Below are positions 2,691-43,324 of a stretch of DNA of 48,402 nt, piece after piece (positions within the stretch are counted from its first letter, which is position 1; every line of letters begins with the position of its first letter). Position numbers and translations under genes: made by a program. The notes beneath the pieces are model-generated. The model saw nothing but the letters and a program-made list of their open reading frames with translations. It ran no database searches and was not told the DNA's origin. This DNA comes from Planctomycetota bacterium (GTDB lineage: Bacteria; Planctomycetota; Planctomycetia; Gemmatales; Gemmataceae): positions 1 to 48,402 of the forward strand of contig VGZJ01000009.1 of NCBI GenBank assembly GCA_016872595.1. The letters are read 5' to 3'.

Positions 2691-3425
2691 ATGCCTCCCT
2701 CGAACACGCTGACCGGAACCCGCGAGCGCACGGTTCTCGAAGAGTGCCAAGACGCCATCGGCTACCGCTTCGCCCGCCCGGAACTGCTGCGCGCCGCCCT
2801 CACGCACACCTCCAGCGCCAACACGCGCGCCGCCAGTAACGAGCGGCTCGAGTTCCTCGGCGACAGCGTCCTCGGCCTCGTCACCTGCGAACAGCTCTTC
2901 GAGCGGTTCCCGGAGTACCAAGAGGGCGACCTGACCAAGGTGAAGTCGGTCGTGGTCAGCCGCAAGACGTGCGCGAAGTTCAGTCAAGAGATCGGCCTCG
3001 GCGACTTCCTGTTCTTGGGCAAGGGCGTGCGGCCGTACGCGGAACTGCCGTCGAACATGCTCGCGGACGTGTTCGAGTCGCTGGTCGCCGGCATCTTCCT
3101 CGACGGCGGGTGGGACGCGGCGAAGGCGTTCGTGCTGCGGTTCATCGGCCCGGAGGTCGAGCGGGTCGCGCGCGAGGCCATCTCCGCGAACGCCAAGTCG
3201 CAACTACAAACGGTCACGCAGCGCGAGTACGGCGGCACCCCGCGCTACTTCCTCCTCGACGAGCAAGGCCCGGACCACAACAAGTGCTTCAAGGTCGCGG
3301 CCCAAGTGAACGACGACCGCTTCCCCGCGGCGTGGGGCAACACCAAGAAGGACGCGGAACTGAAGGCCGCGATGAACGCGCTCGCGTACATCCACGGCGA
3401 CGAACTGCCCTACCCGTGCGACTGA
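2691..3425 (+). CDS. rnc: Ribonuclease III
   Basis: A 244-residue double-stranded RNA endonuclease that processes rRNA and structured RNAs in the cytoplasm. The signature NERLEFLGDS lies at residues 50-59 and supplies the catalytic Glu54 and Asp58. The second acidic pair is in LADVFESLVAGIFLDGG. A dsRNA-binding domain fills roughly residues 175-240, with NAKSQLQTVTQREYGGTPRY at its start and GNTKKDAELKAAMNAL at its end. The length is normal for the family. The gene stands alone, divergent from the isomerase-like gene, and is followed by an inverted repeat. Confidence 0.97.
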   Translation: MPPSNTLTGTRERTVLEECQDAIGYRFARPELLRAALTHTSSANTRAASNERLEFLGDSVLGLVTCEQLFERFPEYQEGDLTKVKSVVVSRKTCAKFSQEIGLGDFLFLGKGVRPYAELPSNMLADVFESLVAGIFLDGGWDAAKAFVLRFIGPEVERVAREAISANAKSQLQTVTQREYGGTPRYFLLDEQGPDHNKCFKVAAQVNDDRFPAAWGNTKKDAELKAAMNALAYIHGDELPYPCD

Positions 3426-3431
3426 TTCTGC

Positions 3432-3509
3432 CTTCTGTAGCCGGCCTCTGTGAGGCCGGAGCTACCCCACAGGTTCAGCTACCGGGATCACAGACCCCGG
3501 CTACAGAAG
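3432..3509. repeat. Imperfect inverted repeat after rnc
   Basis: The outer arms CTTCTGTAGCCGG and CCGGCTACAGAAG are exact complements and the inner parts are imperfect (TCTGTGAGGCCGG against CCGGGATCACAGA). It starts 6 bases after the rnc stop codon and may act as a terminator-like hairpin. It belongs to the general class of palindromic intergenic repeats in this window. Confidence 0.8.
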
Positions 3510-14393: not shown

Positions 14394-14489
14394 GATTAGA
14401 GATTGCAAATTGATGATTGGTGATTGAAACGCACTGGAGCAGCCCGCACTGCTTTTCAATCATCAATCACAAATCTGCAATCTCTAATC
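14394..14489. repeat. AT-rich imperfect inverted repeat
   Basis: Left arm 14394-14429 (starting GATTAGAGATTGCAAAT) pairs imperfectly with right arm 14454-14489 (ending GCAATCTCTAATC). It begins two bases after the peptidase stop and is markedly AT-rich against its surroundings. It may terminate transcription and probably belongs to a dispersed family. Confidence 0.85.
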
Positions 14490-18017: not shown

Positions 18018-18024
18018 CTGGGGG

Positions 18025-18176
18025 CGAAGAACCTAACCCCCCGGCCCCCTTCCCCGAAGGAGGGAAGGGGGAGTACTCGCGCCGAACTGTCCGCGCGCCG
18101 TGTTGCTGACCGAATCTGCAATCACGAAACCTCCCCCGTCCCTTCAGGGAAGGGGGCCGGGGGGTTAGGTTCTTCG
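18025..18176. repeat. Dispersed palindromic repeat, CCTAACCCCCCGGCCCC family, copy 1
   Basis: Arms beginning CGAAGAACCTAACCCCCCGG and ending CCGGGGGGTTAGGTTCTTCG are near-perfect complements of about 36 bases, with inner CCCTTCAGGGAAGGGG-type stems. It sits between plsX and fabD. Related copies lie at 26074-26215 and 36687-36743. Confidence 0.9.
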
Positions 18177-18192
18177 GTTTCAAGGACACCCC

Positions 18193-23144: not shown

Positions 23145-23243
23145 AAGAGTTTCGACAGGATCACAGGATGAACAAAGATCGAAAGCCAAAAAAGAGTGGC
23201 TGTATTCGATCTCTGTTCATCCTGTGATCCTGTCAAAACTCTT
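23145..23243. repeat. Dispersed palindrome, GACAGGATCACAGGATGAA family, copy 1
   Basis: AAGAGTTTCGACAGGATCAC and the inner AGATCGAA pair with TTCGATCT and the right arm ending CCTGTCAAAACTCTT. It lies between the converging YgiN-like and WD40 genes. Related copies are at 30905-31004 and 43166-43266. Confidence 0.9.
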
Positions 23244-26073: not shown

Positions 26074-26215
26074 CGAAGAACCTAACCCCCCGGACCCCTT
26101 CCCTGAAGGGAAGGCGTGGTTAGGGGTTGCAGATACGGGCAGCAACCCGGCGCGCGGGAGGCTTGGCGCGCCGACTCCCCCTTCCCTTCAGGGAAGGGGG
26201 CCGGGGGGTTAGGTT
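26074..26215. repeat. Dispersed palindromic repeat, CCTAACCCCCCGGCCCC family, copy 2
   Basis: Begins CGAAGAACCTAACCCCCCGG and ends GGCCGGGGGGTTAGGTT. It shares outer and inner stems with the copy at 18025-18176 but has a different centre. It sits between the lipoprotein and DUF1501 genes. Confidence 0.9.
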
Positions 26216-29292: not shown

Positions 29293-29791
29293 GGAAGTGT
29301 CGGTCGGCCGGACGGTCGCCGCCTCGCAAGAGGGGGAGGAAAGTCCGGGCTTCACAGGGCGCGGTGATGGATAACGTCCACCCCCGGTAACGGTCGCGGG
29401 CACCCGGCCCGCACCGCCAGCGGGCGGGAAAGTGCAACAGAAAGCGTACCGCCGGGGCAGTGGGCAGTGGGCAGTGGGCAGTGGGCAGAGAAGACAAAAG
29501 CCGGCTTTCTTCTCTGCCCACTGCCCACTGCCCGCTGCCCACTGCCCCGGTAAGGGTGAAAAGGTGCGGGGCGCAAGCCCTTAATGTAAGAGCGCACCAG
29601 CGGCGGGGTGACCCGTCGGCTCGGCAAACCCCACCGGAAGCAAGGTCAAACAGGGGACAGGGTCGGCCCGACCCGTTACGATCCCCGGGTAGACCGCTCG
29701 ACCCCGCCGGCAACGGCGGGGCTAGATAAATGACCGTCGCGCGCCGGCAACGGCGCGGACAAAACCCGGCTTACAGGCCGGCCGACAACTC
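29293..29791 (+). ncRNA. rnpB: RNase P RNA (class A) with repeat-built P12 and P13 insert
   Basis: The catalytic RNA that matures tRNA 5' ends. Conserved elements in order: GAGGAAAGTCCGGGC, AGTGCAACAGAAAGCG, GGTAAGGGTGAAA, GTAAGAGCGCACC, GCAAGGTCAAACAGGGG, TAGATAAATGACCGTC and ACAAAACCCGGCTTACAGG. The 5' TGTCGGTCGGCC pairs with 3' GGCCGGCCGACA to form P1, which sets the ends to within a few bases. Helix P12 is a 40-bp stem (29454-29493 with 29509-29548), built from repeats of GTGGGCA. P13 holds an extra GGCGCAAGCCCTTAAT around 29570-29585 that E. coli lacks; such an insert is reported for Gemmata. Confidence 0.95.
29454..29548 (+). repeat. GTGGGCA-repeat hairpin forming RNase P helix P12
   Basis: Left arm 29454-29493, right arm 29509-29548; the 40-base arms differ at one position, which is a G-U wobble in RNA. 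The centre AAAGCCGGCTTT is itself palindromic, extending the stem. Similar sequence (CTGCCCACTGCCCTCTGCC) occurs at 31008-31026 outside any RNA gene. Confidence 0.95.
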
Positions 29792-30811: not shown

Positions 30812-30904
30812 GGGAACCGCCTCAGAGGAATCGCGGGGGAGTGTGCCCGCATTTTAGCGTGCCCGCGCAACGGCGAAAGGTCAGTGCCGGACGAGAAACA
30901 GACG

Positions 30905-31004
30905 GGCAGTTTTGACAGGATGAACAGGATGAATACAGGATGAAGAGCGCCGCTGTCTTATCTCCCCATCCTGTTTTCATCCTGTTCATCCTACCAAAAC
31001 TGCC
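30905..31004. repeat. Dispersed palindrome, GACAGGATGAACAGGAT family, copy 2
   Basis: GGCAGTTTTGACAGGATGAA and CAGGATGAATACAGGATG on the left pair with CATCCTGTTTTCATCC and TGTTCATCC-type sequence on the right, ending CCAAAACTGCC. It lies between the divergent DJ-1-like and AsmA-like genes, upstream of the AsmA promoter. Confidence 0.88.
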
Positions 31005-31052
31005 TTTCTGCCCACTGCCCTCTGCCATCTGTCCTCTTCTTACGACTCGCAA

Positions 31053-37134: not shown

Positions 37135-37797
37135 ATGACCGACACCGAACTGGGCGCGATCTTGGGCGAACGCGTTGCGAACGTGCGCGCGCGAATTGAG
37201 GCGGCGCGTGCGCGGTCTGGCGAAGCCGCGAGCGGCGTAAAACTGGTTGCCGTCACGAAGACCGTGTCGGCGCGCGTGGCCGCACTCGTGGTGGAACTGG
37301 GCGTGACCGACTTGGGCGAGAGCCGGCCGCAAGCGCTGTGGCAGAAGGCCGAAGCCGTGCCCGGCGCGACGTGGCACATGATCGGCCACCTTCAGCGCAA
37401 CAAGCTGGAGCGCACGATTCCCCTCGTATCACTGGTTCACTCGGTCGATAGCGAGCGCCTCCTGCACGCGCTGGACGCCTTCGGCCGCGCGCGCGGCGCG
37501 CCGGTCCCGGTGCTGCTCGAAGTGAACTGTAGCGGCGAAGCGGCGAAGGGCGGGTTCGCGCCGGACGCGGTGCCGGTCGCGCCGCTGCCCGGCGTTCAGG
37601 TCCTCGGGCTGATGACGATGGCCGCGCGGGAGGGCGACCCGCGGCCCGCCTTCGCGCGCCTGCGCGAACTGCGCGACGCGCTCGTCCCCGGCGGCGAACT
37701 CTCGATGGGCATGAGCAACGATTTCGAGGTCGCTGTGGAAGAAGGCGCGACGCTGGTGCGCGTCGGCACGACGCTGTTCGAGGGGTTGGGTGAGTAA
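37135..37797 (+). CDS. YggS family PLP homeostasis protein
   Basis: A 220-residue pyridoxal phosphate-binding protein with an alanine racemase-like barrel; it buffers PLP and affects amino acid pools rather than catalysing a known reaction. The PLP lysine is Lys42 in LVAVTKTVS. Further motifs: DLGESRPQALWQKA, WHMIGHLQRNK, VLLEVNCSGEAAKGGF and ELSMGMSNDFEVAVEEGATL then VRVGTTLFEG. The stop codon TAA is part of the long perfect inverted repeat that starts at 37794. Confidence 0.95.
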   Translation: MTDTELGAILGERVANVRARIEAARARSGEAASGVKLVAVTKTVSARVAALVVELGVTDLGESRPQALWQKAEAVPGATWHMIGHLQRNKLERTIPLVSLVHSVDSERLLHALDAFGRARGAPVPVLLEVNCSGEAAKGGFAPDAVPVAPLPGVQVLGLMTMAAREGDPRPAFARLRELRDALVPGGELSMGMSNDFEVAVEEGATLVRVGTTLFEGLGE

Positions 37798-37980
37798 AGG
37801 CAGGAATGGCCGCGAAACAGCACAAAAGCCACAAAAGAAGAACAAGACCGAAGCCAGAAGACATTGTTCAGAAGACAAGAGACAGGGGCGCGGTGTCTTT
37901 GTCTTCGACCCAATCTTTTGGTTTTGCCTTTGCCTTCTTTTGTGGCTTTTGTGCTGTTTCGCGGCCATTCCTGCCTTTAC
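37794..37980. repeat. Perfect 47-bp inverted repeat shared by two converging stop codons
   Basis: Arms 37794-37840 and 37934-37980 are exact reverse complements separated by 93 bases. Each outer end (GTAAAGGCAGG) supplies a TAA stop: one for the YggS-like gene on the plus strand, one for the PVC cytochrome gene on the minus strand. The interior is less GC-rich than the surroundings. Confidence 0.97.
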
Positions 37981-40900
37981 TTCTTGTCCTTCGCCTTCTG
38001 GTCCAGCAGGTAGGCGAGGATGTGGTACAGGTCGCGCTCCGGTATGGTGTCGGCGAGGTTCGCCGGCATCGCGGAGAGTTGCGTTTCGCGGTTGGTCGCG
38101 ATCTCGTCCAACGGGATGCGCTGCTCCTTCCCTTCGAGGTCCGCGACCACCAGCACCTTGCCTTCGACGCGCAGCATGAGGGCCGTCAGCGTCTTGTCGT
38201 TGGTGAGGGTGATGGAGCGCGCGCGGAACGCTTGATCGACGTTGCGGTTCGGGTCGAGCACGTCTTCGAGCAGGCGCTCCGTTCCGCGAACGCCGATGCC
38301 GTCGAGTTGCGGGGCGATCTTCCCGCCCGTGTCGCCGACGCGGTGGCACGCGGCGCAGTGCTTGGCGAACAGCTTCGCGCCCTCCACCTTGTCGGGCTTG
38401 GCGTTGGCGAACGCCGTCGCGCGGGCCTTGAGCAGGTTCGCGATCCGCTGATCGGCCGCCGGCAGGTTCTTCGTCAGGTCGGCGAGCACTTTGTCGAAGT
38501 CCTTGATCTTTTGAGCCCGGAGTCGCTCGACGACGGCCTTCTCTTGGAGCAGCTGGGCCGGGGCCTTGCCCTGCTTGACCGCTTCGAGCAACAACTCCGC
38601 GCCCACGGGCGTGCTGGCGAGGCCGAGGCCGACGGGCACCGCGACCCGATACGGCACGGTCTTGAGCGCGTCGCGCGCTTCGGTCTGAACGCCCGGCAAG
38701 TTCGAGGTGGCGGCGGCGAGGATCACGCCGGTGCGCACGGGTTCCGGCGCGGCTTCGTCCGCGAGCACCTTGCGCACGGCTTTCAGCCCTTCGACCGGGT
38801 CGTAGGCGAGCAACACTTCGACCGCGCCCACGCGCAACTCGTCCGGCGCTTTGGCGGCGTGCACGAGCGGGACGACGGACGCGGGCCGCACGGCCTTGAT
38901 CACATCGCGGTCGCCGATCACGGTCAGCGCCTTGTAGAGCCGCAGCCCCCACAGTGCGTCTCGCACCTTGGCCGCGGGCGGCGGGGTCGCCCCCGTGAGG
39001 CTGTCGTCGTCGAGGACGAACCCGGCCCCGTGGACCATGGTCTTCGTCAGGTCCGCGTCCATGCGCGTGCCGCGAGCCTGAACTCCGCGCACGACGGCCG
39101 CCAGCGCGTCCGGGTTCCGAACGTCGGACAGCCACGAGTACAACTGGCCGTCTTCCGCCGGGCCGTAGCGCGCGATGTGTTCGGCGCTGGCGCTCAGCTT
39201 GTCCGCGGGGATCGATTTCGCCTTGAGGCGGCCCAGCAGGTACTTCGCGGCCTTCTCGTTCGGGATCGCGGTCGCCATTTCCACGAAGATGGCGTCGTCG
39301 CCGGCGGGCCATGCGTCGGTGTCGCGCAAGCAGTTCCGCAGCGCGACCTTCGCGGCCATGCGCAGGTGCGTGTCGTCGGGCGCGCACTTCTTCAACACGG
39401 CCAGCACCGGCGGCACGAAGTCCGCGTGCGGGTGCGCGATCACCGCGTCGATGCAGGCCCGCGTCTGGTGGATCGAGTCGAACGACTTGAACACGTCGAG
39501 GAGAATCTTGCGCTCGCCGTCGCCCCACTTCTCGCGGCTGGATAGCGCGCGAACGAGGTGTCCGGTCACATGCTCTGGCTTCACGACGTTCTTCGGATTT
39601 TGGGCGTAGGCGAAGAAGTCCGCGTAGTCCTTGAGTTTCACGGGCTCTTTACCCACCTCGGCGATAAAGCACATCCACGCGACAACGGCTGATACCCGCT
39701 CGGGGGTCTTCAGCGCTTGGGCGAACGCTTCACCCGTGTTTGCGAGCGGGTCTTTGCCTTCCGCGGAGCGGAGCCGGAGTTGGTGCCCGGCGAGGAACCG
39801 CACCGTCAGGTTCGGGTCCAACATGTCCTTGAGCAGTTCCTCATCGGTCGCCTTCGTGAAGTCGGCGCGGTGGAACGTGGGCGCGGCGGCCTTGCCCTCC
39901 GCGCCCTTCCACACAATGCGCCAGAGCCGGCCGCGGTCCTTGTCGCGGCGCGGGTCGCGCAGGTCCACTTCGTAGTGGCCGATGATTTTGTTGTAAAAGT
40001 CGGCGACGTACAGCGCGCCGTCCGGCCCCAGCTTGATATCGACCGGGCGGAACCAGCGGTCCTTGCTGGTCATAAAGTCGGGCAGTTCCTTCGCCACGGG
40101 GCTTGCGCCCTTCCAGTCGATGCGGTCGGCGCTGATGCAGTTGCTCACCACGTCGCCCAGCAGCATCGTGCCGAGGTACTCCTTCGGGTAGTGGTCGGCG
40201 TCGTACCACACCAGCCCGCACAGCCCGGTGCTCTTGTGCGGGTGCGCGGTGACGTGCGGGGCGAACCCCAGCCCGTCGTGCGGCTTGCCGAAGCTGTCGT
40301 AGTACGCGCCCGGAATGAGTTGCGTGATCGGCTTCGAGTGGCAGTCCGCAGTGTACAGGTTGAACCACGGATCAACGGCCATGCCGAACGGGTTCACCTG
40401 TCCGCGGGTCCACACCTCGATCTTGGAGCCGTCGGGCCGGAACCGGAACGTGTTCCCGCTGTGCATCTTGATCGTGTTGCCGCTCTTGTCCTTCACCGTG
40501 CTGGTGTTGTTGAACCCGTGGCACGAGTACACCCAGCCGTCGGGCATCAGCGTGTACGAGTTGTACATGCCGTGCGTGTCGAGCGAACCGAACCCGCTGA
40601 ACAGCACCTCGTACCCGTCGGACTTCAGAACGCCGTCCTTCTCCGCGATCTTGTACTTGCGAATCTCGCCCACGCTCGAAACGAGAACGCTCTTGCAGTC
40701 GGGCAGCGGAAGGATGCCGATGGGGATGTTCAGGTCGCTGGTGAAGGTCTGCACCTTCTTGGCCTTGCCGGTCTTGGGGTCGAAGTCGGACAGGACGAAC
40801 ACCTTATCGGTCGGCTTGCCGTCGGTGGCGAACGGGTAGTGGTACGAGGTCGTCACCCACATCCGGCCCTTCGGGTCGAAGGCCATTTGCATCGGCTTCT

Positions 40901-43161: not shown

Positions 43162-43165
43162 AGCC

Positions 43166-43266
43166 AGAAGAGTGTCGACGGGATCACAGGATGATACCGG
43201 ATGAAGAGAAGCGCGTTGTTCTTCTCTTCATCCGGTATCATCCTGTGATCCCGTCGACACTCTTCT
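43166..43266. repeat. Perfect 46-bp inverted repeat, GACGGGATCACAGGATGA family, copy 3
   Basis: Arms 43166-43211 and 43221-43266 are exact reverse complements with a 9-base loop (CGCGTTGTT). It starts 4 bases after the ATPase stop codon; flanking AAGC/GCTT extends the pairing after one mismatch. Confidence 0.97.
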
Positions 43267-43324
43267 GCTTGCTCTGCACGCGCGTCAACGAACCGCGCGC
43301 CGCCTCTGTTCGTACACCTCTTGT

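Follow-up and report, generated by a model that had tools for sequence, protein, structure and literature searches.

Heptad-repeat hairpins in helices P12 and P3 of the RNase P RNA of Gemmataceae and their dispersed relatives

The window, by which we mean the whole stretch of 48,402 nucleotides analysed, carries the RNase P RNA gene (rnpB) of a member of the Gemmataceae (Table 1). RNase P RNA is the ribozyme responsible for tRNA maturation. Its source genome, G000 in our numbering, is assembled in 590 contigs. An earlier note on this DNA had placed an RNase P RNA at about 29293-29791. This was borne out by the covariance model of the bacterial class A RNA (RF00010), whose full-length match scored 223.6 bits against a gathering score of 100 and was the sole match of the model in the 6.8-Mb genome. 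The Gemmata-group origin proposed in the note was supported as well, since G009, which has the same genus code, is taken as Gemmata sp. IIL30 (HG799462.1). The P13 insert had been regarded as an unusual feature. The insert is real, but of the 77 family RNAs with this stretch read, 64 contain its TTAATG; the insert is common across the family and hence not peculiar to the RNA of the window. As for planctomycete rnpB in general, Butler and Fuerst in 2004 and Butler et al. in 2007 reportedly described a variable P12 and a P13 insert in Gemmata.

Table 1 Features of the window discussed in the text.
Feature	Position	Strand	Basis
RNase III gene, catalytic and dsRNA-binding domains	2691..3425	+	PF14622 102.8 bits, PF00636 81.7, PF00035 58.4
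rnpB, bacterial class A RNase P RNA	29300..29789	+	Rfam RF00010, 223.6 bits, E 2.1e-71, model 1-367
P12 hairpin, 43-bp stem	29452..29550	+	inverted repeat search and RNA fold
5' heptad array, unit GGGCAGT, 4.9 copies, 100% matches	29455..29488	+	Tandem Repeats Finder
P12 apex GGGCAGAGAAGACA, with palindrome AAAGCCGGCTTT at 29497-29508	29483..29519	+	sequence, pattern search
3' heptad array, unit CTGCCCA, 4.9 copies, 92% matches, holding the wobble-making change	29514..29547	+	Tandem Repeats Finder
P13 insert of rnpB (family trait)	29569..29587	+	sequence, RF00010 alignment
Related heptads beyond rnpB, on the margin of a further hairpin (30899-31010)	31007..31037	-	DNA search, inverted and tandem repeat searches

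The two arms of P12 (29452-29494 and 29508-29550, 43 nt each) are 98% complementary. The note had described a 40-bp stem of GTGGGCA repeats with a single wobble; the repeats and the wobble were found as described, and the stem actually measures 43 bp. The palindromic centre that had been noticed was also confirmed. The calculated fold of the stem was -103.4 kcal/mol, and none of 200 dinucleotide shuffles (mean -43.6, sd 3.89) was as low. The P3 helix of this RNA is short (18 nt). A related repeat had been noticed near 31008-31026, and CTGCCCACTGCCC indeed begins at 31008. The neighbouring hairpin at 30899-31010 consists of ACAGGATGAA units and lies between divergent genes; several of the GTGGGCA hairpins in other parts of the genome contain the ACAGGATGAA module too.

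A search of the genome for the GTGGGCA hairpin revealed further copies. In a pattern search of the 6.8 Mb, GGGCAGTGGGCAGTGGGCAG gave 86 matches with at most two mismatches, and the pattern read backward gave none. The 86 matches group into 38 places, two of them inside the window, in a hand count that merged rows at most 300 bases apart. At several of these places the left arm of a hairpin holds GTGGGCA and the right arm the complementary heptad; some of the hairpins enclose other modules, GACAGGATGAACAGGATGAA among them. Furthermore, six other contigs contain the apex 14-mer GGGCAGAGAAGACA with no more than one mismatch (reversed control, 0), and the C138 hairpin has it without mismatch in each arm. 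This recurrence of the apex favours common descent of whole hairpins and not of heptads alone. The earlier reading of P12 as a dispersed palindrome that was inserted or expanded there is supported by these genome copies, hairpins among them.

RF00010 matched 83 of the 95 genomes of the family; with the exception of G004, G050 and G075, these provided readings of P12, 80 in all. The length of P12 was two-peaked, with 37 short (8-46 nt) and 43 long (59-242 nt) helices. In the long class of 43, the 5' arm agreed best with itself at lag 7 in 24 RNAs and at lag 14 in 12, making 36 together, whereas 7.8 were expected from shuffled arms; lag-7 identity reached p<0.01 in 32. The P12 of G022 fails the lag-7 test and was counted as non-heptad. 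The motifs vary by species and include GGATGAA, GAGTGGC, GTCCGTA, GTGTTTG, GGGTTTA and CGTCATT. G021 and G023, which belong to the genus of the window, have P12s of 66 and 77 nt without period 7, a comparison at the level of species. It could be supposed that we are dealing with an assembly artefact, given the 590 contigs of the window's genome, or with ordinary variation taken for a pattern, given that P12 is variable among bacteria. Long P12 hairpins are, however, also present in genomes of one to four contigs (G010, G012, G022, G026 and G087), and period 7 is far above the shuffles; we regard both suppositions as scarcely credible. Across the class, RF00010 matched 155 of 158 genomes, and some of the matches outside the family are long, for example that of G096 (585 nt). 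P12 was read in the family genomes only, and a restriction to the family is therefore not claimed. Several single observations may be added. The P12 of G094 (L046) consists of GGGTTTA units, resembling the plant telomere repeat and having quadruplex potential; that of G027 (L134) has an additional long palindrome, of a different type, at its apex; and the draft contigs L037, L132, L133 and L138 end at or inside rnpB, where hairpins may break assemblies.

P12s can be unrelated between RNAs with 95-98% identical cores. For 75 of the 80 RNAs, a tree and identities were obtained from the core, which begins after P3. Core identity was 0.981 for G052/G053, 0.973 for G013/G024 and 0.971 for G013/G026, and the respective P12 identities were 0.53, 0.58 and 0.59, compared with 0.50, 0.56 and 0.55 after shuffling. 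In the pair G009/G010 (core 0.981), P12 is still common to both (0.76 vs 0.52 shuffled). Three types of P12 require 23 changes on the tree of the 75 cores. A long P12 might be kept by selection, for instance if it stabilises the RNA, binds a protein or forms a G-quadruplex in its G-rich arm, as more than half of the P12s are long and the 5' arm of the window's own P12 could form a quadruplex. Such selection is unlikely as a general cause because 37 of the 80 RNAs do without a long P12; moreover, the long and short types interchange on the core tree, and the quadruplex pattern fits only 2 of the 43 long arms, so that the quadruplex was rejected as a general rule. Altogether, we give selection little credence.

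P3 is a second site for such hairpins besides P12. Long hairpins were found in P3 of 12 relatives, 8 of them with lag-7 p<0.01; the 12 were chosen by eye, as automatic extraction failed for many genomes. The P3 of G022 consists of the same GGGCAGT units as the window's P12, with which it agrees at 79% over 95 nt. Likewise, the P3 of G013 matches the P12 of G024 (80% over 90 nt), and the P3 of G016 matches the P12 of the same RNA in inverted orientation (83% over 96 nt). In total, 17 pairs of P3 and P12 matched at E<=0.001, compared with 1 when the P3s were reversed.

When samples of four genomes were searched by BLAST with the 43 P12 and 12 P3 hairpins, the hits summed to 20 in G000, 18 in G022, 0 in G012 and 1 in G023, compared with 0, 0, 1 and 0 for reversed controls; most single queries had no hit in the four samples. 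The P12 of the window matched one place only in the 448-kb sample of G000 with rnpB masked. The P12 of G015 (L037) had 7 matching places in the same sample, and a dispersed hairpin of G000 (L202 1895-1985) shares GATTGCAGATTTGTGATTGACGATTGAA with it. Four hairpin motifs were tested genome-wide, and three of them (GTGTTTG, GTGGGCA and the GGATGAA hairpin of G016) were abundant at home; their counts cover 19 genomes of the genus. GTGTTTG was most frequent in G024 (150), which carries it in both P12 and P3; G013, which carries it in P3, has 80, but G018, which carries it in neither, has 94. GTGGGCA was counted 57 times in G017, 56 in G022 (carrier in P3), 47 in G000 (carrier in P12) and 47 in G025, and 0-20 times in the remaining genus genomes; rnpB was not found in G017 or G025 by the RF00010 search. 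The G016 hairpin had 27 matches in G016, 26 in G018, 20 in G013, 10 in G024, 9 in G020, 2 in G025 and none in the other 13 genomes. The fourth motif, that of the P12 of G012, is not dispersed at home: within G012 its sole match was to itself, and four other genomes gave weak matches. In the match counts for the G012 and G016 hairpins, rnpB is included and the two strands of one place are counted separately.

Hairpins with arms of at least 20 nt were dense in G000 (63 in 448 kb, of which 13, one being P12, lie in the window), G022 (54 in 400 kb, after one run of N had been dropped from 55), G012 (41 in 400 kb), G066 (58 in 200 kb) and G087 (18 in 200 kb). They were sparse in G023 (1 in 400 kb; L206-L225), G058 (0 in 200 kb; L251-L260) and G074 (0 in 200 kb; L271-L280), and Markov controls gave 0-3. 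The five sampled genomes with a repeat-type P12 or P3 thus had 9-29 long hairpins per 100 kb and the three without had 0-0.25; among the latter, P12 is short in G058 and G074, and long but without period in G023. In the flanks of rnpB, 5 hairpins were found in 64.5 kb of the heptad group, 1 in 59.9 kb of the short group and 3 in 31.0 kb around the other long P12s. The difference between the heptad and short groups agrees in direction with the densities above but is weak (p 0.048), and one hairpin of this test lies in the flanks of G023. The hairpins are mainly intergenic (41/63 in G000, 35/54 in G022 and 33/41 in G012) in samples that are 77-82% coding, according to a crude gene caller. The mean arm length was 32 in P12 and 28-32 in dispersed hairpins, and the mean arm complementarity was 0.92 in P12 (for the 31 of 43 long P12s that passed detection) and 0.93-0.95 in dispersed hairpins. 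A purine-rich 5' arm was rejected as a general feature: it occurs in 27 of 36 heptad P12 arms but in only 2 of 11 heptad hairpins of G066. In the window itself, hairpins of several families occupy intergenic gaps at 3432-3509, 14394-14489, 18019-18182, 23145-23243, 26079-26215, 37792-37982 and 43165-43267. With gene ends from a crude caller, five of these seven begin 2-7 nt beyond a predicted stop codon and one stops 5 nt short of a gene end, while the hairpin at 37792-37982 overlaps two convergent genes at their ends; they could be terminators or mRNA end protectors.

On these grounds, we propose that dispersed palindromes probably entered tolerant helices of RNase P RNA repeatedly, and that the P12 of the window is one such copy; the entry itself is inferred. 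A palindromic repeat with heptad-array arms would have entered the end of helix P12. An insert that is self-complementary would just extend the helix when placed in a peripheral hairpin loop, sparing the catalytic core, and P3 and P12 may be tolerated landing sites for this reason. An enzyme may have moved the hairpins, or they may have moved through recombination with one another and template switching; slippage and correction between arms would afterwards have remodelled the heptads. In favour of insertion, the GTGGGCA motif and partly also the apex are present as hairpins elsewhere in the genome, and relatives bear other heptad hairpins in P12 and P3 that differ fully between near-identical cores. 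The matches between P3 and P12, the motif counts in G024 and G016 and the hairpin-dense genomes also count in its favour. Against it, the P12 of G012 has no second match at home, and GTGTTTG is frequent in G018 though it is not the motif of its P3 or P12. The single place matched by the window's P12 in the masked sample of G000 and the weak result for the rnpB flanks likewise speak against it.

The main rival is growth in place, in which slippage expands heptads and template switching copies one arm into the other with no import. Period 7 recurs with unrelated motifs, the P12 of G012 stands alone in its genome, and the arms of P12 and of dispersed hairpins are alike in complementarity, as such growth would have it; the same motif, however, occurs in P3 of one species, in P12 of another and at many other loci, and the P12 apex is common to dispersed copies. 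Growth in place alone is an insufficient explanation of this sharing of motifs among P3, P12 and other loci. We judge it rather unlikely and retain it at that level because of G012 and G018.

The RNase III gene of the window is the sole PF00636 match in the genome, and the 43-bp duplex of P12 is likely to be a target of RNase III, as predicted by analogy. It is conceivable, though doubtful, that the RNase P RNA of Gemmataceae hosts selfish palindromes resembling intervening sequences at P3 and P12, that RNase III cuts their duplexes, and that many species run on an RNA in two or three pieces.

If entry by insertion is true, repeats can invade an essential ribozyme time after time as long as they are self-complementary and settle in a peripheral helix, and hairpin turnover throughout a bacterial family is recorded in P3 and P12. 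The turnover at P12 and P3 is family-wide, related species differing in their hairpins at the two sites while the rest of the RNA is nearly unchanged. Named relatives, Gemmata sp. IIL30 and Limnoglobus roseus, make fragmentation in the cell and movement of the hairpins testable. The findings also raise the question of why period 7 recurs in unrelated motifs in Gemmataceae and, reportedly, in cyanobacteria.

The nearest precedent is the STRR heptads in cyanobacterial P12. In 1997, Vioque is said to have found that STRR heptanucleotide repeats lengthen P12 of the RNase P RNA in heterocystous cyanobacteria and that close strains carry unrelated repeats. As is reported of that system, heptad tandem repeats extend P12 in the RNA of the window, the repeat is dispersed in its genome (86 matches vs 0), which does not hold for the motif of G012, and close relatives bear unrelated P12 repeats, here at the species level. 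Gemmataceae, in contrast, belong to another phylum. In Gemmataceae, P3 is used too and the dispersed copies are hairpins, two possible differences from the cyanobacteria. Apart from the citation of Vioque, our literature search, with most subscription papers outside reach, brought to light no account of dispersed palindromes within an RNase P RNA.

Three other systems bear comparison. Heptameric repeats of Xanthomonas and Nostoc, according to PMC4692102, are dispersed, over-represented in non-coding regions and sometimes inverted, and were studied for quadruplex formation; the quadruplex pattern, by comparison, fits 2 of the 43 long P12 arms here. REP palindromes and RAYT transposases form a system of short dispersed palindromes that has been reported also from Planctomycetes (PMC3733652). 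The genome of the window contains five Y1_Tnp (RAYT-like) genes, and the GTGGGCA hairpin was absent among the hairpins listed around them, so that no RAYT flanked by this palindrome was found; a RAYT was rejected as the mover, as the hairpins beside the five genes belong to other families. Two of these genes have palindromes on both sides (L144, 1290-1391 and 1967-2077; L145, 1276-1370 and 1923-2013) and probably form a REP/RAYT system of their own, distinct from the heptad hairpins. Finally, the intervening sequences of 23S rRNA are stem-forming inserts cut by RNase III, the Coxiella insert having a 28-bp terminal stem (PMC4990558). The hairpin of the window is likewise a stem-forming insert of roughly 100 nt in one helix of an essential structural RNA; its host, in contrast, is RNase P RNA and not 23S rRNA, and its cleavage is predicted. 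In expected behaviour, the 23S rRNA intervening sequences are the nearest system.
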